A stretch of 64,000 bases of DNA, from the NCBI GenBank assembly GCA_001898505.1, contig MKTZ01000001.1, forward strand, positions 930,001 through 994,000, in the 5' to 3' direction. The DNA comes from Sphingobacteriales bacterium 50-39. Its GTDB lineage: Bacteria; Bacteroidota; Bacteroidia; Chitinophagales; Chitinophagaceae. The position numbers were made by a program, and so were the translations under genes. Shown here in pieces: positions 18,804-54,446 of the stretch. The notes beneath the pieces were generated by a model. The model was not told the origin of the DNA, searched no databases, and saw only the letters and a program-made list of their open reading frames with translations. The stretch's first letter is position 1. Every line of letters begins with the position of its first letter.

Positions 18804-19205
18804 CTAACGCTTTAGTAAATTGATCAGGCGACGGAGGAGGGCTACTTTGAGCTCTTCTTTGTCGGCTGCGAGTATAGGTGTATAATGATCAGGAGAGATC
18901 GGCAGGGTGTTTTGCAACATCGTGATACGATCTTCATATCCTTCCTTCTTCAAATAGGTGAACACGTGTAACAGGAGTATCTTGTACACGAGAGCCGGCG
19001 GTCTTGTTTCATCGAAAAGTTCGTGACTATTCTTCCAGAGGTCGATAAAAACAGTGACCGTAAGATCTTCCAATTGTTTTTTGTCTGTGAGCCCGGTGAG
19101 TCTTGCTATAGCCGTATAAATAGACGGGCAGTACAGGTCAACGAAATGTTCGAATGCGCTGGTTTTGTCGAGGTCGGCACCATTCATGCGGTACGATTTA
19201 ATCAT
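18804..19205 (-). CDS. Sigma-70 region-2-like protein without region 4
   Basis: A 133-residue protein resembling the first half of an ECF sigma factor: AFEHFVDLYCPSIYTAIARL, then LEDLTVTVFIDLWKN and LVYKILLLHVFTYLKKEG, which correspond to region 2 helices binding core polymerase and the -10 element. After about residue 95 it diverges and stops; region 4 (helix-turn-helix) is missing. The sequence beyond the stop does not restore it. It could be a truncated remnant or a short regulator. An internal ATG at 19187 is an alternative start. Upstream lies the divergent sensor kinase gene. Confidence 0.6.
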   Translation of the reverse strand: MIKSYRMNGADLDKTSAFEHFVDLYCPSIYTAIARLTGLTDKKQLEDLTVTVFIDLWKNSHELFDETRPPALVYKILLLHVFTYLKKEGYEDRITMLQNTLPISPDHYTPILAADKEELKVALLRRLINLLKR

Positions 19206-25405: not shown

Positions 25406-26359
25406 TTAGACTTCCCGATATTCATTTAGTTTATGCAGCTCTAAAATAGTTGTCTTACCGTCGTCGCTCTCCTTGTACATGGGTATAAACTTACCATTGA
25501 ACTTTATCTCATGGTAAGTATAGGAGGTGCGTTGCAGCACCTGGTTGGAGTATACGTCGTCGAATCCGCGGATGAGCACATACAGTTCCACGTCAGCTGT
25601 CTTCATATCTTCCCAGGTGAGGCCCCGGAGGGGACTTTTTTCGTCGAGGGGATGGACGACCGTCCAGTTCATCGAGAGGTTCTCGACCTTGCTACGTTCC
25701 AGCTGCAGCTCGTAATACCTGTACTCCGCCGGTCCATCCGATTGTATCTGCAAACCCACGTTGACCCGGATCTCCACGTCGGTGAGGGTATGTTTGTCCT
25801 TATAGGAGGCGAAGCGGAACATGAGAGCCTGACCATCTTTATAAGGGCTGATGAGGGCAAGGTCGCTGAATACGAGGTAGGCTCTTGGGCGGGCAAAGCG
25901 GCCATACATCAGACCTGTCGCCAGGGCAAAGGAAAGGAAGCCGGTCATGGCTTCGATGGAGGCGACAAAATTGGCGCCGTCTCCTACCGGATTGACCCGG
26001 CCATATCCTACCGTAGTGAAGGTCTCGGTGCTGAAGAAATAGGCTTCCTTGAATTTAGCCCAAGAGGTGGCGCCAATGACACCCTGGAGCTGGTCGATGC
26101 CTATAAGCAGGTAGATGAGCGCAAAGATAAAGTTGAATATGAGGTAGACCAGGACGAGGATGCAGGCGAACTTCCATCTCGGCAGGGTCAGCATGTGATG
26201 AAAGATGCTGTATCTGTCCAGGAAGGGGAGCCCTTCCTTGCGGATGTTGAAGGTGCCGTCCCTGTTGATAAAACGTCCCCCATAGGAGCTTGCATTCGTG
26301 CCAAAGCCCGTGTCGTTATTGGTCTTTAACCAGGGATCAATTTTTTTGCTTAGGGCCAT
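25406..26359 (-). CDS. Inward-rectifier-type potassium channel (KirBac)
   Basis: A 317-residue channel. Two membrane helices (about residues 63-88 and 125-150) flank a pore loop with selectivity filter TTVGYGR near residue 114. The C-terminal half is the immunoglobulin-like cytoplasmic domain of inward rectifiers (FRFASYKDKHTLTDVEIRVNV; TWTVVHPLDEKSPL-type strand). The amino terminus has the slide-helix-like stretch before the first helix. It lets K+ pass the inner membrane and is likely gated by ligand or lipid. It lies 18 bp downstream of the FAD/Fe-S gene, possibly the same transcript, but no functional link is evident. Confidence 0.92.
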   Translation of the reverse strand: MALSKKIDPWLKTNNDTGFGTNASSYGGRFINRDGTFNIRKEGLPFLDRYSIFHHMLTLPRWKFACILVLVYLIFNFIFALIYLLIGIDQLQGVIGATSWAKFKEAYFFSTETFTTVGYGRVNPVGDGANFVASIEAMTGFLSFALATGLMYGRFARPRAYLVFSDLALISPYKDGQALMFRFASYKDKHTLTDVEIRVNVGLQIQSDGPAEYRYYELQLERSKVENLSMNWTVVHPLDEKSPLRGLTWEDMKTADVELYVLIRGFDDVYSNQVLQRTSYTYHEIKFNGKFIPMYKESDDGKTTILELHKLNEYREV

Positions 26360-26377: not shown

Positions 26378-29296
26378 TTATGAATCTGCCAGCGCCTCAT
26401 ATAATACCTCTACCGGGTGCAGGGCCTTTCTTCCCGTGCCATCTTTGATCTGGTGGCGGCAGCTGGTGCCCGGAGCGGCAATGATCACTTCTTCCGGCTG
26501 GCGGCGGACAGTGGGCAGCAGCACCAGCTCGCCTATTTTCTGGGAGAGGTCGTAATGTTCTTTTTCGTAGCCAAAGGAGCCGGCCATGCCGCAGCAGCCC
26601 GATGGGATGACCTTTACGGAATAGTTCTCCGGTAAGGATAGCAGCCTGACCGAGCCGGCCACGGAGGAAAGCGCCTTCTGCTGGCAATGCCCATGCAGTT
26701 GGATCTCCCGAGGTGCGTTGGTGAACTGCGAAGGAAATATATTTCCCCTGGCTATCTCTCTGGCGAGGAAGTCGTCGATGAGGTATGTGTTGGCCGATAG
26801 CTTTTGCGCCGCCTCGAGCCATGCGTCATCGGCCAGATCGGGATATTCGTCCTTAAAGGTGAGGATAGCGGAAGGTTCGATGCCGATGAGCGGGGTGTCT
26901 TCCGTGATCAGGGGGCTCAGGGCCCGGACGTTGGCCGCCGCGATCTTTTTGGCCTGGCGTAGCAGACCTTTGGAAAGCCAGGCGCGACCGCTTTCGCCAT
27001 GCTTCGGGATGATCACTTCATAGCCCAGGCGCTCCAAAAGGAGGATGGCTTTTATCCCTATCTCCGTGTCGTTGTAGTTCGTGAATTCATCGCAGAAGAG
27101 ATATACGCGGCCCTTAGGGAATGACCCCCTGGAGGAGTGGTGGTGATACCATTTTCGGAGGGTGGTGGAATGCAGCAGGGGCATGCTTCTGTCGAGGGCA
27201 AAGCCGGAGAACTTTTTGATCCATCGTCCTGTCAGCCGGCCCTTTACCACCTTATTATAAAGACCGGGCATGATAGAGCCCAGCCGGGCCGAGGCAGCGA
27301 AGTTGGCGATCAGTCTGCTGCGGAAGGGTACGCCATTGGCATCATAGTAATGCTGGAGGAATTCGGCTTTTAGCTTGGCGACGTCCACGTTGGACGGGCA
27401 TTCGGACTTGCATCCTTTACAGCTGAGACAAAGGTCCATTACCTCATATATCTCTTTATTGTCATATCTATTAGGCTTATCCGAATGGGTGAGGAATTCC
27501 CGGAGGATATTGGCTCGTGCCCGCGTCGTATCTTTTTCATTGCGGGTAGCCATAAAGGATGGGCACATGGTGCCTCCTGACAGGTGGGTCTTGCGGCAAT
27601 CACCCGAGCCATTGCATTGTTCCGCGTGCTGGAGTATATCCTGGCGATGGAAGCGGAAGATGGTGGGGAAGGCAGGTGTCTTCTGCCCTGGCTCGTAGCG
27701 CAACATGGAATTCATAGAAGGGGTATCCACTATCTTGCCGGGATTGAAGATGCCTTGCGGGTCCCAGGCCTTTTTGATGATGCGCATCAGCTCGTAGTTT
27801 TTCTGGCCTACCATCTGCGGGATGAACTCACCCCTGAGTCTTCCATCTCCGTGCTCACCGCTGAGGGAGCCGCGGTATTTTTTTACCAGGGTAGCTATTT
27901 CTTCCGCTATGGTGCGGAAGAGCTGATTGCCTTCGACTGTTTTCAGGTTGATGATGGGGCGAAGGTGTATCTCGCCACTACCCGCATGGGCATAGTGGAC
28001 GGAATAGAGACCGTGCTTCTTTAGTATCTCGTTAAAGTCACGGATATAGGCGGGCAGGTCCTGGACGTCCACTGCGGTGTCCTCGATGACCGGAACGGCC
28101 TTGTCGTCGCCCGGAAGATTACTCAGCAGTCCTAATCCCGCCTTGCGGAGGGTCCAGATCTTTTTGGTGTCTTCACCGAATAGTAGCGGAAAGTGATAAC
28201 CTAGTCCCGCAGCCCGCATATCCGCCTCGACCTTTGCTGCTATTTCTTTTATCTCGTCCCGGGTGTTGCGGGAGAATTCTATTACCAGAATGGCGCCAGG
28301 GTCGCCCTGGACGAAAAAGCGATTCTTACGTTGTTCGATATTATCCTTGGTGCACTCCAATATATAATGGTCGATGAGCTCGCTGGCGCTGGGACTGTAT
28401 TGCAATGCGATGAGATTGGCCCGGAGGGATTCGTCTATCGTATTAAAATGTACGCAAAGAAGGCCCGACTCGGCCGGAGGCAGGGGAGAGCAGTTGAGCT
28501 TTATCTCCGTGATAAAGGCCAGGGTGCCTTCCGAGCCTGCCAGGAGAGTGCAGAAGTTAAAGTCCGGCATGCCTACCGTAAAAGGGGCTGTCTCCACCAG
28601 GAGGTCGAGGGCGTAGCCAGTATTCCGCCGCTCGATGGAGGCTTTGGGGAATTCCTTGCGTATCTCCACCTGGTTGTCGTAGTTGCCCAGGATGCCCCGT
28701 ACTGTCCGGTAGATGTTGCCTTCCAGGCCGGGGGCCTCACATTTGGCGTGAAAATCATCCGGCGAGAGGGATTGGAAGGTGGCTTCGGAGCCGTCACTGA
28801 GCAATGCTTTGACCTCCAGGAGGTGTTCGCGGGTGCTGCGGTACACGACTGAATTGGACCCGCAGGAGTTATTGCCCACCATGCCCCCGATCATGGCCCT
28901 GTTGGCCGTAGAGGTTTCGGGGCCGAAAAGGAGGCCATGGGGCTTGAGATAGAGGTTCAGTTCGTCCCTGATGACGCCCGGCTGGACCCGGACCCACCGT
29001 TGTTCCTTATTGAATTCCAGGATACTGGAAAAGTATTTGGAGACATCCACTATGATGCCTTTACCCACGACCTGTCCTGCCAGGGAGGTGCCGGCTGTGC
29101 GGGGTATGAGGGAAACATTTTCCTTATGGGCATAGGCAATGAGCTTCTTCAGGTCATCGATAGTTCGGGGGATGGCGACGGCCAGCGGCATTTCTCTGTA
29201 GGCGGACGCGTCGGTGGCATATAGGGTCCGCATGGTCGTGTCATAGTAGAATTCTCCTTCCAGTGTCCGGGCCAGTTGAGGCAGTGTTTCGCTCAT
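26378..29296 (-). CDS. FAD-linked and Fe-S-binding oxidoreductase, D-lactate dehydrogenase-like
   Basis: A 972-residue fusion of three parts: an FAD-binding PCMH domain (residues about 30-250, IPRTAGTSLAGQVVGKG), the FAD-oxidase C-terminal domain (to about 530, with ending motif SGEHGDGRLRGEF), and a glycolate-oxidase-like Fe-S half with CNGSGDCRK, CLSCKGCKSECP and late CCG-type cysteines (GHCQQKAL, SGCCGMAGSFGYEKE). This architecture is that of respiratory D-lactate or 2-hydroxyacid dehydrogenases (YdiJ/Dld-type), feeding electrons to quinone at the inner membrane. The substrate is inferred. Its start overlaps the end of the methyltransferase gene by 56 bp. Confidence 0.9.
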   Translation of the reverse strand: MSETLPQLARTLEGEFYYDTTMRTLYATDASAYREMPLAVAIPRTIDDLKKLIAYAHKENVSLIPRTAGTSLAGQVVGKGIIVDVSKYFSSILEFNKEQRWVRVQPGVIRDELNLYLKPHGLLFGPETSTANRAMIGGMVGNNSCGSNSVVYRSTREHLLEVKALLSDGSEATFQSLSPDDFHAKCEAPGLEGNIYRTVRGILGNYDNQVEIRKEFPKASIERRNTGYALDLLVETAPFTVGMPDFNFCTLLAGSEGTLAFITEIKLNCSPLPPAESGLLCVHFNTIDESLRANLIALQYSPSASELIDHYILECTKDNIEQRKNRFFVQGDPGAILVIEFSRNTRDEIKEIAAKVEADMRAAGLGYHFPLLFGEDTKKIWTLRKAGLGLLSNLPGDDKAVPVIEDTAVDVQDLPAYIRDFNEILKKHGLYSVHYAHAGSGEIHLRPIINLKTVEGNQLFRTIAEEIATLVKKYRGSLSGEHGDGRLRGEFIPQMVGQKNYELMRIIKKAWDPQGIFNPGKIVDTPSMNSMLRYEPGQKTPAFPTIFRFHRQDILQHAEQCNGSGDCRKTHLSGGTMCPSFMATRNEKDTTRARANILREFLTHSDKPNRYDNKEIYEVMDLCLSCKGCKSECPSNVDVAKLKAEFLQHYYDANGVPFRSRLIANFAASARLGSIMPGLYNKVVKGRLTGRWIKKFSGFALDRSMPLLHSTTLRKWYHHHSSRGSFPKGRVYLFCDEFTNYNDTEIGIKAILLLERLGYEVIIPKHGESGRAWLSKGLLRQAKKIAAANVRALSPLITEDTPLIGIEPSAILTFKDEYPDLADDAWLEAAQKLSANTYLIDDFLAREIARGNIFPSQFTNAPREIQLHGHCQQKALSSVAGSVRLLSLPENYSVKVIPSGCCGMAGSFGYEKEHYDLSQKIGELVLLPTVRRQPEEVIIAAPGTSCRHQIKDGTGRKALHPVEVLYEALADS

Positions 29297-29957
29297 GGCG
29301 CAAATTTAGCGAACAAATGGTTATCCAGGACAGGTGATGGCTCCTTCCTAAAAGCCTGTTGGTGAGGGAGTGTGGGTTGAAGTGCAGGCGGTATGAAAAG
29401 GCGGTCAGGTCCTTGCGGGACAGGGGAGTATCCAGGATATGTATTTCCCCGCCCTCCTTTAGCTGCATAAGTGCGGCGGTAAGGACGTCCTTCAGAGATG
29501 GAAAATACTGTATGGATGCCGAGAAGATGATGGCGTCAAAGGTAAGCCCCTGTATAATGCCTGAATAGAAATCCCCGCACATGAACTTGAGGTTGGACTG
29601 GTGACGAAAGACCCTGGCGGCTTGTTGCAATACCTGGAGGTCCCTGTCGAGACCCAGAATGCGGTGACCGGGGATGGAAGCCAGGTGATGGGAGAGCCAT
29701 CCATTGCCGCAGCCGACCTCCAGGATGCTGCTGGCCTTCTCCCGCAGGGCAAAGTGGTGCACGAGCCTCTGACAGGACCTTTTGCGAAGCTGCCAGTGTT
29801 TGTATTGCGGGTGTGTTTTTGGTAAGTTCGGGAGCTGCGCCACTTCTTCATCCGTGAAGCCCCGTATACATCTGTCGTGATGACCCGGATGCAGCGCCAA
29901 CCTGCTGCTGCTCTTGTCCAGACCGGGGATATAGATATTGTTCGTCTCGATGCTCAC
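29241..29957 (-). CDS. Class I SAM-dependent methyltransferase
   Basis: A 238-residue methyltransferase with motif I ILEVGCGNGWLSHHLA near residue 78, acidic LGLDRD at the end of strand 2, and FDAIIFSASIQYF at strand 4. The substrate is unknown. The segment FNPHSLTNRLLGRSHHLSWI looks like a natural family ending, but the frame runs on for another 25 residues into the start of the FAD gene, and the region before it (TPLSRKDLTAFSY) appears shorter than in relatives I remember. A small deletion or a lost stop codon is therefore possible. It is divergent from the ECF sigma gene, 82 bp away. Confidence 0.75.
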   Translation of the reverse strand: MSIETNNIYIPGLDKSSSRLALHPGHHDRCIRGFTDEEVAQLPNLPKTHPQYKHWQLRKRSCQRLVHHFALREKASSILEVGCGNGWLSHHLASIPGHRILGLDRDLQVLQQAARVFRHQSNLKFMCGDFYSGIIQGLTFDAIIFSASIQYFPSLKDVLTAALMQLKEGGEIHILDTPLSRKDLTAFSYRLHFNPHSLTNRLLGRSHHLSWITICSLNLRHERNTASTGPDTGRRILL

Positions 29958-30039
29958 CCTCTCCGATACGGTTAATCAAAAAGAAAGGATGCTTTGTGCG
30001 GGTGGATGTTCGTATTTTATAAGATTTTTTTTATTTTTA

Positions 30040-30636
30040 ATGACTACGACAGCTGCCATGGGAAATTCAGGTCCTGATATCACTTCATTGCTTTACGGTG
30101 TCTCCGCCAATGGGGATGAAGCAAGCTACAGGCAGCTGTTCGATATTTTTTTCCCTTCGCTGTATCGATTTACCCGGTATTTTTTAAAATCTCCCGAGCT
30201 GGCGGAAGAAGCCGCTTCGGATACAATGATTGCTCTCTGGGAGCATCGGGACAAGCTGATGGCCATCGGGAATGTCAAGGTCTGGCTTTTTGTGATAGCC
30301 CGGAGCAAGTGCCTGAATATCCTTAAAAGGCAGCAAGTCAATCCAACCCTGTCGCTGGATAGCATTCATGTGGAGATCAGCTTCCCGGGTAAGGACCCTG
30401 AGGAGATCTATATCAACACTGAGATGCGGAAGAAAATGGAAAAAGCTGTCAATTCCCTGCCCCAGCGGTGCAAGCTCATCTTCAAGCTGGTGAAGGAGGA
30501 GGGGCTCAGCTACAAGGAGGCGGCGGATATTCTTCATATTTCACCCAAGACCGTCGATGCGCAGCTGGTGACGGCATTTAGGAAAATTACTCAAGCTATA
30601 AGGCTGCTATGGACACGCGAATCATACAATTATTAG
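30040..30636 (+). CDS. ECF-type RNA polymerase sigma factor
   Basis: A 198-residue ECF sigma factor. Region 2 is seen as LFDIFFPSLYRFTRYFL and AEEAASDTMIALWEHRD with VKVWLFVIARSKCLNIL; region 4 as SLPQRCKLIFKLVKEEGLSY followed by the helix-turn-helix AADILHISPKTVDAQL. The ATG at 30040 was chosen; the longer frame adds 34 residues without family likeness. The last 28 bases overlap the following gene, whose product has a FecR-like anti-sigma N-terminus, so the two are a coupled sigma/anti-sigma pair. Its targets probably include the operon itself and polysaccharide genes, as for other Bacteroidota ECF factors; that is inferred. Confidence 0.9.
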   Translation: MTTTAAMGNSGPDITSLLYGVSANGDEASYRQLFDIFFPSLYRFTRYFLKSPELAEEAASDTMIALWEHRDKLMAIGNVKVWLFVIARSKCLNILKRQQVNPTLSLDSIHVEISFPGKDPEEIYINTEMRKKMEKAVNSLPQRCKLIFKLVKEEGLSYKEAADILHISPKTVDAQLVTAFRKITQAIRLLWTRESYNY

Positions 30637-32189
30637 CCCGAAAATTATCAGGTGAAGCGACGGCTGAAGAGCTGGCCGAGCTGGATGAGCTGCTGACCCG
30701 CAATCCCGAAGGCGTTTATTATGCGGAGCTGATCGGTCAGCTATGGGATGAGGGGAAGATGCGCGCTCCTATGGATACGGATATTCTTTATATGAAACAT
30801 ATTGCCCGGCACCGCCCGGACTTCCGGGGTTTGGGGAAACTGTCCGTCAAGCCGGTGATAGAGACCGAGGAGCGGCTGATCGAGACGGGGGAGCTGCGGG
30901 ATGAGCCTTTTCAACGCCCTCCTTTGGAAGGCCATGGGCGAAGATATTGGGTGGGGTGGGCCGGCGTTGCGGCCGCGGTGATTATTACACTGGGGTATTT
31001 TCTATACCATGGCAGCGCTATAAAAGTTCCTGTTGCCGTGGCGGAAAAGGATCGTGATTATTGGTTGCAGCAACTGGATCGCCTGGCGCGACCGGTGCTC
31101 TATCACCTGGCGCAGGATGATCTGAAGAAGAGCATGCCGGTGGTGCTGTCCCTGCGGACGGATGATGCTGTCTCGCGTACGAGGGCGTCTTATCTGGAGG
31201 CTTTTGGCCGGGTGCTGGCCGGTGTCGCTCCCTGGCTGGAGGGAGAGGGCGGATCTGCAAAGGAGGTGGCCCTTCGCAATCAATACAGGGCATGGGCATT
31301 GGATGCTATACGACATGCGACGGATACAGCCGCGGCGGATCATATGGCGTGGGACAGTCCGGAGCAGGCACTGGTGGATGCGGCCTTTTTTGCCTATGCG
31401 CTTGTGCGTTGTCCCTGGTTGTGGGAGCACCTGGATACGGTGGGACGCCGGCATGTGGTGGAAGCGCTGGTGAGCACGCGGAAGATACGGCCCGGCTTTA
31501 ACAACTGGATATTATTTTCGGGGATCATCGAGGCATTCTTCTGTCAGTATGGACTGCCCTGGGATGAGATGCGGGTGGACTATGCCATTCGTCAGATGGA
31601 GCAGTGGTATGTTGGGGACGGTCTTTATTCGGACGGTCCCAAATTCCATGACGACTATTACAACAGCTATGTCATACATCCTTTTCTCACCACTATCACG
31701 GACATCGTGTATAAGAAGAATGGGGGATATGCGGCCATGTTAGAGCGATTCAGACAGCGCGACGAGCGGTATGCGCTGATACAGGAGCGGCTGATCAATA
31801 CCGATGGGAGCTATCCCGTGCTGGGCAGGTCGGTAGTGTACAGGGGCGCTGTCTTTCAGCATCTGGCGGACATGGCCTGGAAGAAACGATTGCCTGTGCA
31901 GCTGAAGCCTGCCCAGGTACGCTGTGCGTTGACAGCTGTCCTGCGGAGGACAATGGAGGCGCCGTCTACCTACACAAAAGAGGGATGGCTGAATATCGGC
32001 GTATATGGATCACAGCCCGGGCAGGCGGATATATATAATACAACCGGGAGCCTGTACCTTTGTTCTGCCATCTTGCTGCCATTGGGACTGCCGGATACGG
32101 ATGAGTTCTGGTCCGGCGCCGCGGAACCGTGGACAGCACAGAAAATATGGAGTGGACAGGATGTATCCGGGGATCATTCCATAGATTAG
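30609..32189 (+). CDS. Anti-sigma N-terminus fused through a membrane helix to a DUF2264 (GH154-like) domain
   Basis: A 526-residue protein with an unusual composition. Residues 1 to about 72 look like the cytoplasmic sigma-binding part of Bacteroidota FecR proteins (LLARKLSGEATAEELAELDE). Residues about 113-133 are a single membrane segment (WAGVAAAVIITLGYFLYH). From about residue 147 to the end runs a complete DUF2264 domain: DYWLQQLDRLARPVLYHLAQ, FNNWILFSGIIEAFF, GDGLYSDGPKFHDDYYNSYV, and the ending EPWTAQKIWSGQDV. As I recall, DUF2264 corresponds to GH154, which contains beta-glucuronidases. The usual FecR beta domain is absent. It overlaps its sigma gene by 28 bases and precedes a GH88 gene by 20. 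The inferred role is a membrane anti-sigma factor whose periplasmic sensor binds or cuts a uronic-acid-containing glycan. Catalytic competence cannot be judged here. Confidence 0.85.
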   Translation: MDTRIIQLLARKLSGEATAEELAELDELLTRNPEGVYYAELIGQLWDEGKMRAPMDTDILYMKHIARHRPDFRGLGKLSVKPVIETEERLIETGELRDEPFQRPPLEGHGRRYWVGWAGVAAAVIITLGYFLYHGSAIKVPVAVAEKDRDYWLQQLDRLARPVLYHLAQDDLKKSMPVVLSLRTDDAVSRTRASYLEAFGRVLAGVAPWLEGEGGSAKEVALRNQYRAWALDAIRHATDTAAADHMAWDSPEQALVDAAFFAYALVRCPWLWEHLDTVGRRHVVEALVSTRKIRPGFNNWILFSGIIEAFFCQYGLPWDEMRVDYAIRQMEQWYVGDGLYSDGPKFHDDYYNSYVIHPFLTTITDIVYKKNGGYAAMLERFRQRDERYALIQERLINTDGSYPVLGRSVVYRGAVFQHLADMAWKKRLPVQLKPAQVRCALTAVLRRTMEAPSTYTKEGWLNIGVYGSQPGQADIYNTTGSLYLCSAILLPLGLPDTDEFWSGAAEPWTAQKIWSGQDVSGDHSID

Positions 32190-32209: not shown

Positions 32210-33445
32210 ATGTTGAGAAATTCTCTTTTGGCGGCCGGACTGATGATATGCGCTGCCGGTGCGGCACAAAAACCTATCCGTCTCCAACCCAAGCCTGCCC
32301 TTGTGCGTCTCATCGATGGCAACCTCCGGCAGGCGGCGAATCAATATAAAGTATTAATGGGCAAGATACCGGCGAATCGTATGCCGAAGACGTATTATGC
32401 GATGCAGGACAGGCTCGAGACCAGCGACTCGAAGTGGTGGACGAGCGGATTCTACCCCGGCACACTTTTTTATCTTTACGAGTTCTCCCATGACACTTCC
32501 CTGCTGCATGAGGCGACGAAGCGGCTCCGGCTGCTGGAAAATGAGCAGTTCGATAAGGGGACCCATGATCTGGGTTTTATGATGTACTGCAGCTTTGGGA
32601 ATGCCCGTCGTGCGTTGAACACAAAAGATTATGACGACATATTGCTGAACAGCGCGCGGAGCCTTTCTACGCGATTCAATCCTAAGGTAGGCTGCATCAA
32701 GAGTTGGGATAACAACAAATGGCAATATCCCGTCATCATCGACAATATGATGAACCTGGAGCTGTTGCTGTTTGCGACGCATATTACGGGGGATAGCGCC
32801 TTTTACAGGGTGGCAGTAAGCCATGCCAATACTACCATGAAGAACCATTTTCGTCCGGACTACAGTTCATTTCATGTCGTAAATTATGATACGGCTACAG
32901 GGGCCGTATTGGCTCGTGTGACCGCGCAGGGTTTCGCGGACTCTTCGGCCTGGGCGCGCGGTCAGGCATGGGGCTTGTATGGCTATACGATGATGTACCG
33001 GGGTACGCATGATCCCCGTTATCTTATGCAGGCGGAGAATATCGCTCATTTTATTCTTGGGAACCCGAACCTGCCGGCGGATAAGGTGCCTGTATGGGAT
33101 TACAATGCGCCGGAGGGACAGCGGGCATTGCGGGATGCCTCGGCCGGAGCCGTCATGGCGTCTGCGCTGATAGAGCTGAGCAGGTATGTCGGCCCTGAGA
33201 AGGGGAAGGAATACCTGGATGCAGCCGAGCAGATCATCGTCACGTTGTCCTCATCCAACTATCACGCCATCGTGGGGTCCAACGGCGGATTTATACTGAA
33301 GCACAGCGTGGGTCATCTGCCTGGCCGATCGGAAGTGGATGTGCCATTGACCTATGCGGACTATTACTTCGTGGAGGCTATGCTGCGATATAAACAGCTA
33401 GGGGAGAAGGATGGGTCTGCCCATCATGTCGAAGGCTTCCAGTAG
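32210..33445 (+). CDS. Unsaturated glucuronyl hydrolase, GH88
   Basis: A 411-residue alpha6/alpha6-barrel enzyme that hydrolyses the unsaturated uronic acid left at oligosaccharide ends by polysaccharide lyases. Signal peptide at residues 1-19 (AAGAAQ), so it acts in the periplasm. The family acids are Asp120 (GTHDLGFMMY) and Asp178 (IIDNMMNLEL), spaced 58 apart as expected for the catalytic pair; SSAWARGQAWGLYGY is also typical. TAAATTTT at 32192-32199 could be a -7 box giving it an extra promoter. It follows the anti-sigma/DUF2264 gene by 20 bp and overlaps the convergent acetyltransferase gene by 48 bp at its 3' end. Confidence 0.92.
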   Translation: MLRNSLLAAGLMICAAGAAQKPIRLQPKPALVRLIDGNLRQAANQYKVLMGKIPANRMPKTYYAMQDRLETSDSKWWTSGFYPGTLFYLYEFSHDTSLLHEATKRLRLLENEQFDKGTHDLGFMMYCSFGNARRALNTKDYDDILLNSARSLSTRFNPKVGCIKSWDNNKWQYPVIIDNMMNLELLLFATHITGDSAFYRVAVSHANTTMKNHFRPDYSSFHVVNYDTATGAVLARVTAQGFADSSAWARGQAWGLYGYTMMYRGTHDPRYLMQAENIAHFILGNPNLPADKVPVWDYNAPEGQRALRDASAGAVMASALIELSRYVGPEKGKEYLDAAEQIIVTLSSSNYHAIVGSNGGFILKHSVGHLPGRSEVDVPLTYADYYFVEAMLRYKQLGEKDGSAHHVEGFQ

Positions 33446-47632: not shown

Positions 47633-49003
47633 TTATCGCGTGGGGTTCTGCTGCATGTTTGGTTTATTGAACGTGATCACCTCGGGGGGTATGTAATAGA
47701 CATACCGGGTGCTGTTGGGAGAAAGCGTATAGATCGTGCCTGCCACGGTGCGTGTCAGCGTCGTGGCAGTGGAGGCGTCCATGTTCAGCCGGCGCAGGTC
47801 GGTCCACCGGAGGCCTCTATAGAGCAATTCTTTTCTCCTTTCCTGCAAGATCTGCTGCAGCGCATCATTTGAGTCGGTGGCCGTATAAGGAGTGAATGTA
47901 CCGGTAGACATTCTCTTTATCATCAGGCTATCGAGGTCGTTCATGGCGGCGGTGACATTACCCGTGCGTGCATAACATTCCGACCTGGTCAGGTATATCT
48001 CATCCGTTGCCAAACCACAAAACGCATAGCCGTTCTCGTCATAGACGCCGATGAATCTACCCCTGATAAAGAAAAGCGCTTTCCTCAGATCGGAGGACTG
48101 ATAAGATTTAAGCAGCAGGCTGTCTGTAATGCTCCTGTTTATGGGGCAAGGTCCTGTCGAATACATGGCGGCGCCAAAGATCACTTCGGGATTGGTACGG
48201 GTGAAGGGAAGAGCGCCACTTGGGATCACGTCATTATAATCCATTAACGTATTCCGGATCTGGAGACAGGAGTCTGCGTAGAGGAGAGCGATAGCATATT
48301 TGCGCATGCTGAGATAGACCCTGGCCAGCATGGCATAGGCGGCTGCTTTGGACGGACGGGTAATAGAGCGAGGAATGCCGGGAAGCAAGGGAATGGACGC
48401 GGAGAGATCGCCGATGATCTGTGTATAGGTTTCTTCTACGGAAGATCGTGTAAATTTTTCGTCGATGGTGCTGGTCTGTCTGAGCGGAAGACCCAATGGA
48501 TCAGGGGCGCCGTCGTCATAGGGTTTTGTAAAGATCTGCGCCAGTTGAAAATAGGCAAAACCCCGGAAGAAATAAGCGCTGCCCTCGGCATTGTTAAGGG
48601 AATCCTGATCAGCTTCGGTCGTTGGGTGGAGCTTCCCCAGGGCGTCCAGGACAACTTTGGAATAAAGTACCGTGCGATAGGGCAGGTCCCAGTCATTGAC
48701 CTCTCCGCTGGTATAGATGTCGGCGGCCCAGATGACGGCGTTCTGGTCGGTAGGGGTATATTGCGCGTAAAAGCTATTGTTCACATAATAGTCGTCGGAG
48801 CCAGTCTCGCCCAAACTGGGATAACCGCTGATGCCATAGCCGTTCATGACATTGTCGTTGTCCATCAGCGCCTGACAGTCGGCGATGCTGGTAGGAATGG
48901 ATATGGAGCTATCCGGCCTGGCATCGAGGAAGGTGGACCTTTTACAGGCCGCGTTGAGCGTTGTTAAAGTAAGTGCCATATATAAGAGATGTCGCGTGTG
49001 CAT
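47633..49003 (-). CDS. SusD/RagB-family nutrient-binding lipoprotein
   Basis: A 456-residue outer membrane lipoprotein: signal peptide with lipobox LNAAC (Cys20), then helical TPR-like repeats (AYFFRGFAYFQLAQIFTKPY is diagnostic) and the C-terminal LLYRGLRWTDLRRL motif of SusD proteins. It caps the SusC channel encoded nine bases upstream and binds the ligand. It is shorter than glycan-binding SusD proteins (500-600), resembling the subgroup associated with sigma/FecR control. Ligand unknown. Confidence 0.93.
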   Translation of the reverse strand: MHTRHLLYMALTLTTLNAACKRSTFLDARPDSSISIPTSIADCQALMDNDNVMNGYGISGYPSLGETGSDDYYVNNSFYAQYTPTDQNAVIWAADIYTSGEVNDWDLPYRTVLYSKVVLDALGKLHPTTEADQDSLNNAEGSAYFFRGFAYFQLAQIFTKPYDDGAPDPLGLPLRQTSTIDEKFTRSSVEETYTQIIGDLSASIPLLPGIPRSITRPSKAAAYAMLARVYLSMRKYAIALLYADSCLQIRNTLMDYNDVIPSGALPFTRTNPEVIFGAAMYSTGPCPINRSITDSLLLKSYQSSDLRKALFFIRGRFIGVYDENGYAFCGLATDEIYLTRSECYARTGNVTAAMNDLDSLMIKRMSTGTFTPYTATDSNDALQQILQERRKELLYRGLRWTDLRRLNMDASTATTLTRTVAGTIYTLSPNSTRYVYYIPPEVITFNKPNMQQNPTR

Positions 49004-49012
49004 GGGGTGGTT

Positions 49013-52000
49013 TTAGAAGTTGATATTTACGCCCAGCGATATGCGGCGCGCTTCTTTTGGAATATTTATATAATAGGGATCGATGTCTGACTTGTTGGCC
49101 TTCCAAAGGATACCAAGGTTAGAGAGATAATTATAGAAACGGATCTTCTCGAAGGGCAGCCAGGAGTGATCCTTTTTCTCCAGGTCGTAGCTGATGACGA
49201 TGTCCTCCAGCCGGATATGATCGGCTTTTTCCACCAGCGCGCTGGAATTGAGATAGAAATTATCCCTTGGAATGTTGGTGGGATCTCCTGTGGCGGGAAT
49301 GATGGTCCTTGTTTCATCACCCGGCTGCTGCCAGCGACGGGCATAGTCGGCATTGCCCGTCCAGTGGTTAAAAAGGTCCGAATAGCTGATGGATGGCCGA
49401 CGGAAATAATAGCCCAGTTTGTAGCTGATATTGAACGAAGCCGTAAAATGACGCCATTCGAAGGTATTCCGGAGAGCCCCGAAAATGGTGGGCTGGGAGG
49501 AACCGTTATGAACCATGCTGTCGATAATGGTATTGTTATATATGGATGGCCACTCCTTGCTGATCTTGCCATTGTAGTAAGCTATTGGGTCGCCCATATT
49601 ATCGAGCCCTCTCCATTTAAAGCTGTTGATGGCATAGATGGCCTGTCCGGGCCGGGGATTGATGGTATGCTGATCAAGGTAGCTGACGCCGGTGGAGGTG
49701 TTCAGGAGATATTTCTGGACTTTGGACACAGCCTTCCTGAATATAAAGTTGGAGGTCCATTTCAAGTTAGAGGACGATTGACCGTCCAGGATACGCGCTT
49801 CCAGCTGAAGATCGATGCCCGACCCGTTCATGGAGGCGCTGTTGGCATAGTAATAACCTGGTGTGCCCGGGAATTGAACCAATCCAAGGGTCGGGTCGGC
49901 CGGTGCGGCTCCTACGAGGTCGGTAGCGTGTTTATGATAATATTCCAGCGAACCTGTTATGGCTTTTTTCACGGTGAAATCAATCCCCAGATTGAAGACA
50001 CCCACCTGTTCCCAGCGGAGATTGGGGTTGGACAACCCGGTGATATAACCAACATTATAAGAGTTGCTGGTCACACCGCCTTGTGAATAAGTGGCAGTGG
50101 TATAGGCGGAAGCCAGCCGGGAGATATTGCCATTGCGGCCATAGGTCGCTCTTAATTTTAGGTCGGACAGCCAGTCGATGTGATAGAACCGTTCGTGGTT
50201 GATCTGCCAGGCCAGGCCGGCGGACCAGAGCGGTACAGTCTTCCCGTTGGTATTTACCCCAAAGAGATTGGCGGCGTCCTCGCGTGCGCTGGCCGAGACC
50301 GTATATAAATTATGGAGGGTATAGGAGGCGTTGATATAGTATCCCAGGAAATGATCGATCTGCTGGACTGTTGGGGCGGCACTCGGGATCTTTGCAGCGT
50401 TGAACTGCTGATAGGCCGAATAACTGCCAGCATAGTCGATGTGAGAGTTGTACGAACCATTATCGGGGTTATATCCATACTCCTTGTCGTAACGCAGCGT
50501 GCTTGTCAGGCTTTTTATCTCATAGCCGCCGATGGCTGTCAGGTTGTTCTGGTGGCCCCAGTTGTGTTTAAAGTTCAATTGCAGCCTGCCCTGGTGGGAT
50601 ATCGTCTCCTGGGTGGCGAGATCGAGTATGCCGCCCGGAGGAACGGGATAGGACAGATTGTTGCTTGTGTCTACCTGGATAAAGCTATTGATAAGATCCT
50701 TTGCATAATAGGAGGAGGCATCGTGCAGATCGTTTGCACCCGAGCCGCCACTCTCATACTGATATTTCAATTCCAAATTAAGGGAACGGCTAAAGGCATA
50801 ACGGGCGCCCACATTGATCAGCAGGTCGTGCGCCCGGTTGATATATTGTCGCGCCTGCATATCCTTTAACGGCATATAGGTCCAGTCCGGAAAGTTGAGC
50901 TGATGAGTGGCGTCGAGGTAGTCGGGGCTATAATCCATTGACACCGGTCTGGGGTTGCCCAGGGCATCGGCCAGCCGGGCATAGGGATAAAATCCCTTAA
51001 GGCCGTGTGAGCTTTGATAGCTGAATCCTGGGTTGCCGTTGGCCCGGGTGGTATTATGGGTAAAGGTTATTCCCGTCTCGATCTGCAGTGGGGTACTGAT
51101 CTTAAGAACGTTGTGCAATCTCATGGTGATCCTGTCGAAGGAAGACCCTGCGACGTCGGATAGATTATGGTCCCAGCCTGTCGAAAAATAATAGGCTGCG
51201 TTGGTCGTGGCCGCTGATGCCTGCAGGTAGTGCTGCTGGTTGACGCTGCCTCTATAAAAATATTTCTCCATGTCACCGTATACATCCTGGTTCTTCATGG
51301 ATGCGATCAGTGTATTGGCGGTGTTCGGGTCGATGGTCCCGGCAGCCACTTTAGAAAGAAGCTCCACAACGGGCGTCATCGGTGTGGTATTTGAGGAGGA
51401 GGCGTAATATCCACTGTCAAACAGGGATCTTTCTCTATCGATGAAGTCGGCGCTGGAGATGCGGGAGATATTGAATACATCCGGCCTGGGCTGGAAGGTG
51501 ACGGAGCTGCTGTAGCTAAACACCGGTGTAAGGGTCCTGATGCTGTCGCTGAGCTTGCCTTTACGGGTGTTGATGACGATGACCCCATTGCCCGCGCGGA
51601 CACCCCAGATGGACGCGGCGGCTGCGTCCCTGAGGACCGTGATATTCTCTATATCATTGGGGTTGATATTGTTGATGTCTCCGTCATAGGGGAAATTATC
51701 CACTACATAAAGGGGCGTGGCATTGGCATAAATGGTGCTTAATCCACGTATCTGCGGTATCTCTCTGATGGGAATGCCGGATGCGTTCTGGCCATGATTG
51801 GACAGGACTCCCGGGATGGTGTTTTCGATCCTGCTGTTGACGTCGGTGGATACCGTACGGGTGATGAGGGCGCGGTCGATGAATCCGAAAGAGCCCGTGG
51901 CCCTGTCTTTGGGTATGTACTGATAACCATTGCTGATGGGGACTACGATCACTCCGGGAAGCGTCTCGTTCCCGAATTCGGACACCTTATGCTGCCCGGC

Positions 52001-52354
52001 GGAATTATCCTGAGAGGTCGTCCTGGTAAGGCTGGCTACATAGGATGCAGTAATTTTTCTTTTTATCACAAAGGTCCTGCTGTCCCTTATATAGTCGGTG
52101 ATAGGGAGTAAGCCTAAGTATTTTTTCAGGAAGTCGTCGATGGAGATCTTTTTCTCATTCACGGTGATCCTGACGTCAGTGGGTCCGTTCTGGCTCTGGA
52201 AAAAAAGGGTGTATCCCGTCTGTTGCCGGATGATCTCGCTGACCTTGACCAATGGGGCGTCTTTCACATGGCATTCAAAGGTTTCCTGTGCATGAGCATA
52301 CCTGCTCACGCCGAATAAAAAGAATAGCAGAACAACGACACGCATAAGCAGCAT
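49013..52354 (-). CDS. SusC/RagA-family TonB-dependent transporter with STN domain
   Basis: A 1113-residue outer membrane transporter. After the signal peptide (ends AHAQ near residue 23) comes an STN domain (residues about 25-100, LVKVSEIIRQQTGYTLFFQS) for signalling to FecR, then a short region with GYQYIPKDRATGSF, a box typical of Chitinophagaceae SusC proteins, the plug with IRGLSTIYANATPLYVVD and SIWGVRAGNGVIVINT, and the 22-strand barrel. The usual carboxypeptidase-like domain is reduced or absent. STN plus the adjacent FecR and sigma genes make it a transducer. An internal ATG at 52345 is an alternative start. No polysaccharide-degrading enzymes flank it, so the substrate is open. Confidence 0.93.
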   Translation of the reverse strand: MLLMRVVVLLFFLFGVSRYAHAQETFECHVKDAPLVKVSEIIRQQTGYTLFFQSQNGPTDVRITVNEKKISIDDFLKKYLGLLPITDYIRDSRTFVIKRKITASYVASLTRTTSQDNSAGQHKVSEFGNETLPGVIVVPISNGYQYIPKDRATGSFGFIDRALITRTVSTDVNSRIENTIPGVLSNHGQNASGIPIREIPQIRGLSTIYANATPLYVVDNFPYDGDINNINPNDIENITVLRDAAAASIWGVRAGNGVIVINTRKGKLSDSIRTLTPVFSYSSSVTFQPRPDVFNISRISSADFIDRERSLFDSGYYASSSNTTPMTPVVELLSKVAAGTIDPNTANTLIASMKNQDVYGDMEKYFYRGSVNQQHYLQASAATTNAAYYFSTGWDHNLSDVAGSSFDRITMRLHNVLKISTPLQIETGITFTHNTTRANGNPGFSYQSSHGLKGFYPYARLADALGNPRPVSMDYSPDYLDATHQLNFPDWTYMPLKDMQARQYINRAHDLLINVGARYAFSRSLNLELKYQYESGGSGANDLHDASSYYAKDLINSFIQVDTSNNLSYPVPPGGILDLATQETISHQGRLQLNFKHNWGHQNNLTAIGGYEIKSLTSTLRYDKEYGYNPDNGSYNSHIDYAGSYSAYQQFNAAKIPSAAPTVQQIDHFLGYYINASYTLHNLYTVSASAREDAANLFGVNTNGKTVPLWSAGLAWQINHERFYHIDWLSDLKLRATYGRNGNISRLASAYTTATYSQGGVTSNSYNVGYITGLSNPNLRWEQVGVFNLGIDFTVKKAITGSLEYYHKHATDLVGAAPADPTLGLVQFPGTPGYYYANSASMNGSGIDLQLEARILDGQSSSNLKWTSNFIFRKAVSKVQKYLLNTSTGVSYLDQHTINPRPGQAIYAINSFKWRGLDNMGDPIAYYNGKISKEWPSIYNNTIIDSMVHNGSSQPTIFGALRNTFEWRHFTASFNISYKLGYYFRRPSISYSDLFNHWTGNADYARRWQQPGDETRTIIPATGDPTNIPRDNFYLNSSALVEKADHIRLEDIVISYDLEKKDHSWLPFEKIRFYNYLSNLGILWKANKSDIDPYYINIPKEARRISLGVNINF

Positions 52355-52388
52355 CGGTTTAGTTATAGTTAGAATAGCTATGGTTCGG

Positions 52389-53579
52389 TCAGGGTGTTAC
52401 GATCACCTTATTCCCTTCTCGAATAAAATGTACGTCTTCATTGGTCATATAGTTCAATATGACGGACAGGCTCACATATCGTGAAAATTCACCTTCATAA
52501 TTATATTGGTTATTGGGCACTCTCATCTCTACTTCTACATTGTACCATTTGGACAATTCGTGCATGACGGTAGCGATATCGGCATGTGAGAAATAGAATA
52601 TTCCTTCCTTCCATGCCGTCACCGAATCGGGATCGATGTCCTTACGCAGCTGCCATTTGTTCTCGCGGGAGATGCTGACGCCTTCGTTGGGGCTGAGAAC
52701 CTGTTGATGCTGACCGTTCCGGACCGAGATCTTCCCATTCAGCAGGATGGCAGTAGTATTGTTCTCATCACTGTAGGCCCTGATGGAAAAACTGGTGCCC
52801 AGCACATCGACCGTGAGATTATTGACCTTCACATGGAAAGGATGAGCAGGATCCTTCGCCACTTCGAAATAGGCTTCTCCTGTCAGCGCCACTTCTCTGT
52901 CAGCGCCGCTGAAGAAGGTGGGATAATACAGCCGGGATGAATCGTTCAACCAGACCTTTGTTCCATCCGGCAGGATGATGGAGTACTGGCTTGTCCGGGG
53001 TGTGGTCAGGACATTATACTGAACAGGGGTTTGCTGTTGAGACTCCACATAGGGCAGGGGCACGGGAACATAGGAGAGGGCGCTGTCTGTCCGGACAATC
53101 CTTGCGCCGGATTGAAAGGCTATGTCTCCTTTTGGCTGGTCCTGCAGATCGAGCTGCTGTCCGCCTGCAAGCGTCAGTATGGCCCTGTAACCACCGATGC
53201 GGGTACCCGGCGGGGTGGCATGGGCTATGTTTTTTGGATTTGTTACAGACCGATGGCGCTGGAGTGCAATTATCGTTGTCACTACTGCCAGGGGGATGAT
53301 GATCGCGGCTACCCGCCAGAAAGGTTTTTTATAGAAGGGGGTATTTTTTTTATTTATCATCTCCCATGCCTCTTCCAGCGCAGATCTCGGGTCTATTTCC
53401 TGTATCCCGGCCAGGTCGGAAGTGAGCTGATCTTCATCCTGCAGCCGGGCTATAAGCAGCCATATCTGTGGATGTTCGGCTCCGTAAGCATCGAGCTCGT
53501 TGCTTTCTTCTTCGGTCAGGCTATCGGCTAAATATTTGCAGACCAATAGTTTTAATGTTTCCTCCGATATTTCTGGCAT
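52389..53579 (-). CDS. FecR-family anti-sigma factor
   Basis: A 396-residue membrane anti-sigma factor of canonical layout: cytoplasmic helical sigma-binding N-terminus (KYLADSLTEEESNELDAYGA), a membrane segment at about residues 86-105 (WRVAAIIIPLAVVTTIIALQ), the FecR beta domain (YSIILPDGTKVWLNDSSRLY, ALTGEAYFEVAKD) and a C-terminal DUF4974 (VMHELSKWYNVEVEMRVPN). It holds the sigma factor encoded ten bases upstream and is triggered by the STN domain of SusC. It is the useful comparison for the divergent anti-sigma fusion at 30609. Confidence 0.94.
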   Translation of the reverse strand: MPEISEETLKLLVCKYLADSLTEEESNELDAYGAEHPQIWLLIARLQDEDQLTSDLAGIQEIDPRSALEEAWEMINKKNTPFYKKPFWRVAAIIIPLAVVTTIIALQRHRSVTNPKNIAHATPPGTRIGGYRAILTLAGGQQLDLQDQPKGDIAFQSGARIVRTDSALSYVPVPLPYVESQQQTPVQYNVLTTPRTSQYSIILPDGTKVWLNDSSRLYYPTFFSGADREVALTGEAYFEVAKDPAHPFHVKVNNLTVDVLGTSFSIRAYSDENNTTAILLNGKISVRNGQHQQVLSPNEGVSISRENKWQLRKDIDPDSVTAWKEGIFYFSHADIATVMHELSKWYNVEVEMRVPNNQYNYEGEFSRYVSLSVILNYMTNEDVHFIREGNKVIVTP

Positions 53580-53590
53580 AAGCGTTGGGT

Positions 53591-54238
53591 TTAATGGTTG
53601 GGCAATGAGCCCGCCGGCGGGCGGGCGAAGCCGGCCTGTTCTTGAAGAAAAGAACCGGGGTCGGCCAACAAAGATAACAATGTCTTGAAAGCACGGGATT
53701 TACGAATGGCCGCAGCATTTTCTGAAATATGCCATTCGGCTGCCAGCTGGGCTGTCGTCTTCCGGCCTGTGATGACCTGGTCCAATACCTGTTTACAGTC
53801 TTCGGGCAGTTGGTCCAGTTTGAAAAACATCTCTGCCAGGATCTCTTTATATATCCTTTCCATATGGGGGCCTTTAAATTCCCAATCTGTGGACATATCC
53901 AGGATGCCGGCTGCGATGTCATTGTGGTCCCTGATCCTGGCCGGAGACAGGCGAAAGGTGGTACATTTATTTCTAACTGTCTCACGGATAAATCGTTTCA
54001 GGTCGTCTTCGGAGGTAAACCCCTCCCGATAGTTCCATGCATCTATAAAGGTGCAGAGGATGATCTTTCTGGCGGCTTCGGCGTCGCCCAGTGTGTCGCG
54101 GGTGCGTAGGAGGAGGCCCGGATATTGCAGTTCGAAAAAATGGTTAAAAGCTTTCGGATGACCTTTCGTAAAAAGAACAAACCACTTGATGCCTTTGAAA
54201 GCCTTGTGTTTTGATTGGATAAGCAGGCTGAGTTTCAT
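53591..54238 (-). CDS. ECF-type sigma factor of the SusC/SusD locus
   Basis: A 215-residue ECF sigma factor. Region 2 is seen in FNHFFELQYPGLLLRTRDTL and ILCTFIDAWNYREGF, region 4 in QLPEDCKQVLDQVITGRKTT followed by AAEWHISENAAAIRKSRAF. The match is somewhat loose in region 2. The ATG at 54238 is used; the longer frame begins in an unrelated stretch. It ends with a proline-rich tail over a 14-bp palindrome (53609-53622). Together with FecR and SusC it forms a standard transcriptional activation cascade for this locus. Confidence 0.85.
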   Translation of the reverse strand: MKLSLLIQSKHKAFKGIKWFVLFTKGHPKAFNHFFELQYPGLLLRTRDTLGDAEAARKIILCTFIDAWNYREGFTSEDDLKRFIRETVRNKCTTFRLSPARIRDHNDIAAGILDMSTDWEFKGPHMERIYKEILAEMFFKLDQLPEDCKQVLDQVITGRKTTAQLAAEWHISENAAAIRKSRAFKTLLSLLADPGSFLQEQAGFARPPAGSLPNH

Positions 54239-54446
54239 TGTAATAGCATTACATTGGATTTTGGCGGCGGCAGGTTGACCGGAGCCGTTGGTAAAATGGA
54301 GATAAAGCAAGGATTTTAAAAAAGAAATTAGCTACTGACGTGTTAGTAGGAGTGTTCAGCCAGGGTCTCCATGAGTAGGTAATACATATTCCGCCTGTCG
54401 GAAAAAATCTTAGTTGGATAGTCTGGGCGCAAGCGCAGGTAGTTTT

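Follow-up and report, generated by a model that had tools for sequence, protein, structure and literature searches.

A FecR-type N-terminus fused to a predicted DUF2264 uronate dehydratase beside an extracytoplasmic function sigma factor gene in a Sphingobacteriales bacterium

Introduction

In Bacteroidota, FecR-type regulators are usually portrayed as being signalled by an outer-membrane TonB/SusC receptor. Here we analysed a 64,000-nucleotide stretch of Sphingobacteriales bacterium 50-39 (assembly GCA_001898505.1, contig MKTZ01000001.1, positions 930,001 to 994,000 of the forward strand), hereafter the window, in which an extracytoplasmic function (ECF) sigma factor gene is followed by a gene encoding a protein, P0001, confirmed to carry, in one chain, an N-terminus of the FecR type, a single membrane helix and the complete DUF2264 domain. 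P0001 shares its N-terminal domain, helix and linker with the Bacteroidota FecR regulators retrieved as its relatives (P0121–P0146), but where these carry a FecR beta domain, a Gly-Thr motif and, in all but one, a FecR_C domain, P0001 has an enzyme.

Among the systems with which P0001 was compared, the lysozyme receptor RsiV has domains and a sigma class unrelated to those found here. RsiV is described as an anti-sigma factor with direct ligand binding, in which proteolysis controls the activation of an ECF sigma factor (PMC4183432). The closest analogue in function is RsgI6 of C. thermocellum, in which a sigma-binding cytoplasmic end, a transmembrane segment and an outer carbohydrate-enzyme domain are combined (PMC4711584). 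By contrast, P0001 has no RsgI_N domain, its presumed partner is an ECF sigma factor of the TIGR02985 family rather than sigma-I, and its enzyme domain would be periplasmic, whereas that of RsgI6 lies at the outer cell surface; the GH10 domain of RsgI6 is nearly inactive yet binds its polysaccharides (PMC4711584), whereas the essential residues of P0001 are complete. In the FecR-BlaM fusions of E. coli, N-terminal parts of FecR are placed on a periplasmic-type enzyme, the shorter ones lacking the Gly-Thr bond (PMC9249621); unlike P0001, they are artificial, and BlaM is unrelated to the controlled pathway. For the enzyme half, the B. caccae enzyme BcGDH (9O4U/9NWF; PMC12269599) shares with P0001 the whole domain, ten essential residues and a GH88 partner, and differs in that P0001 carries a FecR N-terminus and membrane anchor instead of a leader. 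Direct sensing has already been proposed in this phylum, since a review figure legend on an ECF sigma/anti-sigma pair of Bacteroides xylanisolvens has arabinoxylan binding the carbohydrate domain of a transmembrane protein and thereby freeing the sigma factor; the cited part of the review mentions no enzyme fusion and does not contain the word FecR (PMC10766802).

Architecture of P0001 and its operon

P0001 is encoded at 30609–32189 on the forward strand, in a single stop-free frame whose translation is 526 amino acids long. The sole Pfam match was DUF2264 (PF10022) at residues 148–508 (31050–32132), covering profile positions 1–353 of 353 with an E value of 1.6e-108 and 363.4 bits against a cut-off of 25, and at E up to 1 neither the FecR beta domain PF04773, FecR_C PF16344 nor RsgI_N was found. 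Residues 1–110, which gave no Pfam match, retrieved 28 proteins when used as a query, namely P0001, a second fusion (P0002) and 26 intact FecR proteins, of which P0145 has PF04773 alone and the other 25 carry PF16344 in addition, marking residues 1–86 (30609–30866) as a FecR-type cytoplasmic N-terminus. The highest 19-residue hydropathy window, at residues 114–132 with a mean of 1.80, is preceded by a basic GRRY and aligns with the membrane helix of the intact FecR proteins, indicating a single membrane helix, probably a signal anchor, at about residues 114–133 (30948–31007); the hydropathy profile fits an N-in/C-out topology. FecR homology ends with PVAVAEK and DUF2264 homology starts from DRDYW, placing the fusion junction between AEK and DRDYW at about residues 146–148 (31044–31052).

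The ECF sigma factor gene upstream (30040–30636, +) encodes 198 amino acids from the ATG at 30040, and a longer frame (29938–30636) begins with TTG. The longer frame matched TIGR02985 at E 6.2e-37 with 127.3 bits, just above the cut-off of 126.4, together with Sigma70_r2 and r4_2. The sigma frame overlaps the fusion gene by 28 bases (30609–30636), and a GH88 unsaturated uronyl hydrolase gene (32210–33445, +) starts 20 bases past the fusion stop; on the grounds of this overlap and gap, the sigma, fusion and GH88 genes look like one operon. The GH88 protein matched 3wiw, named 'Glycosyl hydrolase family 88', at E 6.6e-110, and seven further PDB entries, four of which are named unsaturated uronyl or chondroitin disaccharide hydrolases; in Pfam it reached Glyco_hydro_88 at E 0.035 only, under the cut-off.

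Eight proteins scanned at 24.1–35.3 kb, a set that left out a 972-amino-acid frame at 26.4–29.3 kb, included no TonB, SusC or SusD protein near the fusion. By contrast, an ordinary set on the minus strand of the window does contain receptor genes: its SusC-like gene with a Plug domain (49013–52354) and SusD-like gene (47633–49003), together spanning 47.6–52.4 kb, are grouped with a FecR gene (52389–53579; PF04773 and FecR_C) and a sigma gene (53591–54310) of their own. Because the FecR domain, FecR_C, the Gly-Thr motif and a nearby receptor were all absent in these tests, P0001 lies outside the FecR family in the full sense; nor is it an RsgI.

P0002, with 553 amino acids and the same architecture, is 80% identical to P0001 from end to end, which argues that P0001 is not a frameshift product. 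The P0001 cluster, with two member sequences, occurs on 29 contigs (the longest of 2.96 Mb) and P0002 on 10, and neither a stop nor a leader-like stretch lies between the FecR linker of P0001 and DRDYW. On these grounds a frameshift or assembly error joining two separate genes was rejected, and we consider it highly improbable, even though both genes are separate in relatives and an apparent FkbM-DUF2264 fusion in genome G320, with a leader-like stretch before its enzyme domain, resembles a two-gene read-through. The initial annotation, drawn from the letters of the window, had described an uninterrupted frame with a FecR-type N-terminus, a single membrane helix and a full-length DUF2264 domain, without FecR beta and FecR_C domains, next to a sigma gene and without a TonB transporter; all of these are borne out by the data above, with the 28-base overlap as a correction. 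The frameshift that it had named as a refutation was looked for and is contradicted by P0002, which is also the one protein found in the proposed search for others with both domains.

The combination is rare among the sequences searched. Among the best 120 of 7769 matches to full-length P0001, that is, 119 besides P0001 itself, P0002 alone spans the whole query. The idea of a wide family of FecR-DUF2264 fusions was abandoned, as no third member appeared among the 28 proteins found with residues 1–110, among the 14 retrieved with residues 60–190 of P0002 (the two fusions and 12 FecR proteins) or in 294 genomes of the family, where no other DUF2264 match among those listed starts before query residue 94. 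At least 128 frames bearing a FecR-type N-terminus (FecR-N) were listed in 31 of the 33 genomes of the genus. Sorted only by length, 96 match FecR proteins, 17 match ATP-binding cassette (ABC) permeases and 11 are short; the four of odd length, which were opened, are this fusion, two FecR proteins extended upstream and a permease truncated at the end of its contig, leaving P0001 as the sole outlier by length. In a limited literature collection, no paper named DUF2264 and none paired GH154 with an anti-sigma factor.

The DUF2264 domain as a predicted uronate dehydratase

Three PDB relatives of P0001 were found at E values from 1.3e-92 to 2.2e-91, namely 8oi4 (1.3e-92), named a beta-galactosidase, and 9o4u (3e-92) and 9nwf, both named glucuronate (glucuronic acid) dehydratase. 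BcGDH, a former GH154 enzyme, is reported to dehydrate terminal beta-glucuronate, enabling GH88 to act, and alanine mutants of E74, R78, N176, N177, W178, F181, Y229, R285, Y289 and Y354 are reported as inactive on chondrosine (PMC12269599). P0001 keeps all ten, as E197, R201, N298, N299, W300, F303, Y351, R407, Y411 and Y476, as mapped by hand from the printed alignment with the numbering of the paper taken as that of the 9o4u chain plus 5, anchored by R285A of 9nwf and in agreement with the motif positions. A similar role, in ulvan breakdown together with GH105, is described for a different oligosaccharide dehydratase, P29_PDnc (PMC8511951).

Given the ten retained residues, the adjoining GH88 gene and the short end branches of both fusions described below, the DUF2264 domain of P0001 is most likely an active dehydratase rather than a former enzyme. 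The initial annotation had called the domain 'glycosidase-like' and a 'former enzyme domain'; the complete set of BcGDH residues and the neighbouring GH88 gene leave the latter unsupported, as the assignment of the ex-GH154 family as beta-glucuronate dehydratase (PMC12269599) does the former, so that DUF2264 is better read as a uronate dehydratase than as a glycosidase. Its parallel with RsgI holds in part, in that RsgI6 carries a GH10 sensor (PMC4711584), and fails in that both RsgI_N and sigma-I are absent here.

Origin of the fusion

G309 and G319, two further genomes from this genus, are syntenic with the window at this locus. Like the window, they carry a methyltransferase, DUF2264, GH88, GNAT and beta-lactamase-like gene; in the relatives DUF2264 and GH88 were assigned by profile and the others read from translations. 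There, DUF2264 is stand-alone with an N-terminus that by eye resembles a secretion leader, and the gap between the methyltransferase and DUF2264 genes (83 and 58 bases) holds no sigma or FecR gene. In the window, this gap is occupied by the sigma gene and the FecR part, bordered on the left by the methyltransferase gene (29241–29957, −; Methyltransf_25, E 5.9e-13), and the G+C fraction is 0.46–0.51 at 29.8–30.8 kb compared with 0.56–0.59 at 30.6–31.6 kb. The sigma factor is uncommon in the genus. Among the 33 genomes, G301 has a sigma gene 72% identical to that of the window, the remaining matches listed being at most 44% identical; it stands with an intact FecR gene of 374 codons beside MGH1/GH63- and GH95-kind genes, on a contig that stops about 800 bases past FecR, and the DUF2264 gene of G301 is on another contig.

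The two fusions differ at the junction. The FecR part of P0002 extends further and takes in a residual piece of the beta domain (VVRLNGG...GEAIFDVGKDK), about 35–40 residues long and without a Pfam match at E up to 10, before reaching the same DRDYW. Across the helix and linker, P0001 is identical to P0122, P0126 and P0127 at 38 of 59, 35 of 54 and 39 of 54 positions but to P0129 at only 18 of 53, whereas P0002 is closer to P0129 (32 of 53). In a tree of the sequence up to the junction with helix and linker included (13 rows, with 11 of the 26 FecR proteins), both fusions as one clade were rejected by the approximately unbiased (AU) test with p 0.0001, and with all 28 rows this clade appeared in 0% of bootstrap trees. 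Residues 1–86 place P0001 and P0002 as sisters with weak support (78/73). In the enzyme tree, the two fall in a five-member clade with P0003, P0004 (which begins within the enzyme domain) and P0005; 8% of 200 bootstrap replicates group the two fusions together, and their end branches of 0.039 and 0.037 compare with 0.054, 0.10 and 0.14 for the other members. A single origin of both fusions was thus rejected with the helix and linker, and residues 1–86 and the enzyme tree would be compatible with one fusion followed by recombination. Since the fusions differ in junction and helix, the sequences suggest either that the fusion arose twice, or that it arose once with later exchange of the helix region.

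An ancestral order sigma-fecR-DUF2264 was also considered and rejected. Of 39 DUF2264 loci from named genomes (two of them on the same contigs as L051 and L052, and a few short or fragmentary), only L067 has adjacent sigma and FecR genes, which lie downstream, and L086 has a FecR gene about 9 kb off. L067 (11234–13060) belongs to Pedobacter sp. MC2016-24, in which the sigma and FecR genes stand directly 3′ of DUF2264, unfused. Separately, P0017 (DUF2264) and P0135 (FecR) each lie on a contig of length 79,993, perhaps one and the same.

The regulatory half

Region by region, P0001 and P0002 are identical at 79 of 86 positions in residues 1–86 (92%), at 16 of 53 aligned positions in the linker (30%) and at 351 of 379 in the enzyme. 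Residues 1–86 of P0001 are identical at 79 of 86 positions to each of P0129, P0122 and P0126 as well. In a comparison of 11 sequences, residues 1–48 contain no change private to either fusion, and beyond them P0001 has four (E49G, T55M, F60L and L62M) and P0002 two (P54F and A66D). Against the nine intact relatives, residues 1–86 show on average 9.7 differences in P0001 and 8.0 in P0002, compared with 6.7 among the intact proteins themselves, which points to some extra divergence in P0001 without breakdown. The N-terminus of P0001 may bind the sigma factor encoded upstream.

The motif VLGT[AS]F[ND]V, which contains a Gly-Thr pair, is present in all 26 intact relatives and in neither fusion. 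Self-cleavage sites are reported at Gly181-Thr182 of E. coli FecR and Gly191-Thr192 of P. aeruginosa FoxR (PMC8144685, PMC11637429), and by analogy the Gly-Thr pair of the motif would be the self-cleavage site of the intact relatives.

Discussion

The sequences are best explained by a young chimera of two working genes. A sigma-fecR pair would have come to sit ahead of a gene for the dehydratase with its GH88 partner; the periplasmic half of fecR would then have disappeared, and what remained, the cytoplasmic domain and helix, would have been joined in frame to the mature enzyme, displacing the leader. The resulting inner-membrane protein is predicted to bind the adjacent sigma factor through its cytoplasmic FecR-type end and to expose in the periplasm an active beta-uronate dehydratase, which would prepare terminal uronic acids for the GH88 enzyme of the next gene. 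With the TonB/SusC receptor input apparently lost, sigma activity would be set by the rate of chimera synthesis and by membrane cutting, presumably through proteolysis of the RseP type. A specific signal is most likely not involved, and by self-activation the operon might largely keep itself on.

We tentatively favour this reading, in which the sigma factor is deaf to a receptor and its output is set mainly by chimera turnover, at somewhat less than an even chance. In the E. coli work cited, FecR fragments from FecR59 to FecR116 turn on the fec genes without ferric citrate (PMC9249621, PMC8144685), and fec transcription is likewise on without ferric citrate in FecR deletions lacking Gly181-Thr182 and in FecR-BlaM fusions containing 61–301 FecR residues (PMC9249621). 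The helix of E. coli FecR, residues 80–100, is retained in FecR116 and in the Gly-Thr deletions (PMC8144685), and RseP generates an active fragment from the full-length protein (PMC9249621, PMC8144685). Since such fragments, deletions and fusions activate unprompted, signal-free output is the default expectation for P0001.

Several points weigh against this reading. The most active fusion, FecR81-BlaM, ends at about the start of the helix (PMC9249621) and is for that reason a near but inexact analogue of the chimera, and the precedent may not transfer, as the FecR proteins tested in the cited passages come from outside this phylum. If output were constitutive, the sigma factor would have hardly any value as a regulator, and this favours some input. 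The extra divergence of residues 1–86 could reflect relaxed constraint. On the enzyme side, of the 119 homologues listed besides P0001, 54, 48, 118, 97 and 102 contain the respective regular-expression motifs around the essential residues, and because these surroundings vary, ten retained residues do not prove activity in this branch. The ratio of nonsynonymous to synonymous substitutions (dN/dS, NG86) of the enzyme, 0.086 against G309 and 0.080 against G319 compared with 0.115 between G309 and G319, spans mostly the time before the fusion, with dS above 1 and YN00 failing for most pairs. The proposal as a whole builds on sequence, from which both sigma binding and the transcriptional outcome are inferred.

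The main rival reading is the direct glycan sensor proposed in the initial annotation, but with an active enzyme, in which uronate-ended oligosaccharides would bind the dehydratase domain and alter its shape or assembly, exposing the short stalk to a first protease; RseP would then free a FecR-type fragment, and the sigma factor would raise an enzyme pair that removes the inducer. Such a design has a parallel in the GH10 outer sensing module of RsgI6 (PMC4711584) and in the direct arabinoxylan binding drawn for Bacteroides xylanisolvens (PMC10766802). It would also suit BcGDH, which is reported to form tetramers and, when bound to substrate, to have a loop at the active site that was modelled in two conformations (PMC12269599). 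Both fusions retain the FecR N-terminus, helix, stalk and enzyme, and the architecture either arose twice or survived recombination, in line with this reading. However, FecR-BlaM fusions are active without ligand (PMC9249621), a ligand-dependent output has no counterpart in the data from this locus, and the GH10 domain of RsgI6, whose activity is very low, is retained for its binding (PMC4711584), whereas the essential residues of P0001 are intact, so that the enzyme, if active, would break down the very signal it senses. We therefore regard a glycan sensor as somewhat unlikely. More doubtful still is the fuller proposal of a trigger enzyme, in which an active uronate dehydratase would relay the presence of its substrate through the inner membrane, the two fusions would be independent, and the locus would constitute a TonB-independent, enzyme-gated sigma switch in Bacteroidota.

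At the other extreme, the fusion may have arisen by chance, the membrane-anchored enzyme alone mattering and the FecR end being a decaying signal anchor. The rarity of the architecture (2 of the 28 proteins found with residues 1–110), a linker diverging so fast that 16 of 53 aligned positions match P0002, the four private changes of P0001 within residues 49–62, and the distance of its residues 1–86 from the intact relatives, greater than that among the intact proteins themselves, would fit such a relic. A plain signal anchor would, however, have no need of residues 1–86, which are 92% identical between the fusions against 30% for the linker, and the sigma frame, which overlaps the fusion gene, is still open. 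A recent origin might also account for the conservation of residues 1–86. On balance a relic is unlikely.

Compared with intact FecR regulators, what sets the turnover-controlled chimera that we favour apart is that the receptor-sensing half has been swapped for the pathway's own enzyme, beside the sigma gene and the GH88 partner. If P0001 does not sense, it would be a natural relative of E. coli FecR-BlaM, in which one fusion turns a regulated sigma factor constitutive; if it does, it would correspond to RsgI6 in a Gram-negative bacterium, but with an enzyme that works.

Related frames and neighbouring genes

A FecR-N-like N-terminus also stands on a MacB/FtsX-type ABC permease in locus L046 (2176–4884, 902 amino acids), which was scanned. 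Frames of similar size occur in the genome of the window itself (C1:1001007, 913 amino acids) and in other genomes of the genus, making up the 17 of permease size among the 128 listed, and FecR-N may be a module used also outside sigma control. Three other DUF2264 frames contain a further domain. The FkbM methyltransferase-DUF2264 frame of G320 (L054, 6334–8580), listed publicly as one protein, P0030, was considered as a second kind of fusion and rejected, the leader-like stretch between its two parts pointing probably to two genes. In L055 (6247–8292) and L056 (6791–8737), the frame continues beyond DUF2264 into a second domain that resembles GH16.

Elsewhere in the window, the sigma factor of the ordinary minus-strand set (47633–54310) is a weak match to TIGR02985, with 59.8 bits against the cut-off of 126.4. 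A frame of 133 amino acids at 18804–19205 (−) matches TIGR02985 at positions 2–78, about half of the ECF sigma model, with an E value of 3.4e-07 and is a possible fragment. An inward-rectifier (Kir-type) potassium channel is encoded at 25406–26359 (−), and a similar gene, read from translations, lies near DUF2264 in G309, G319 and G320.

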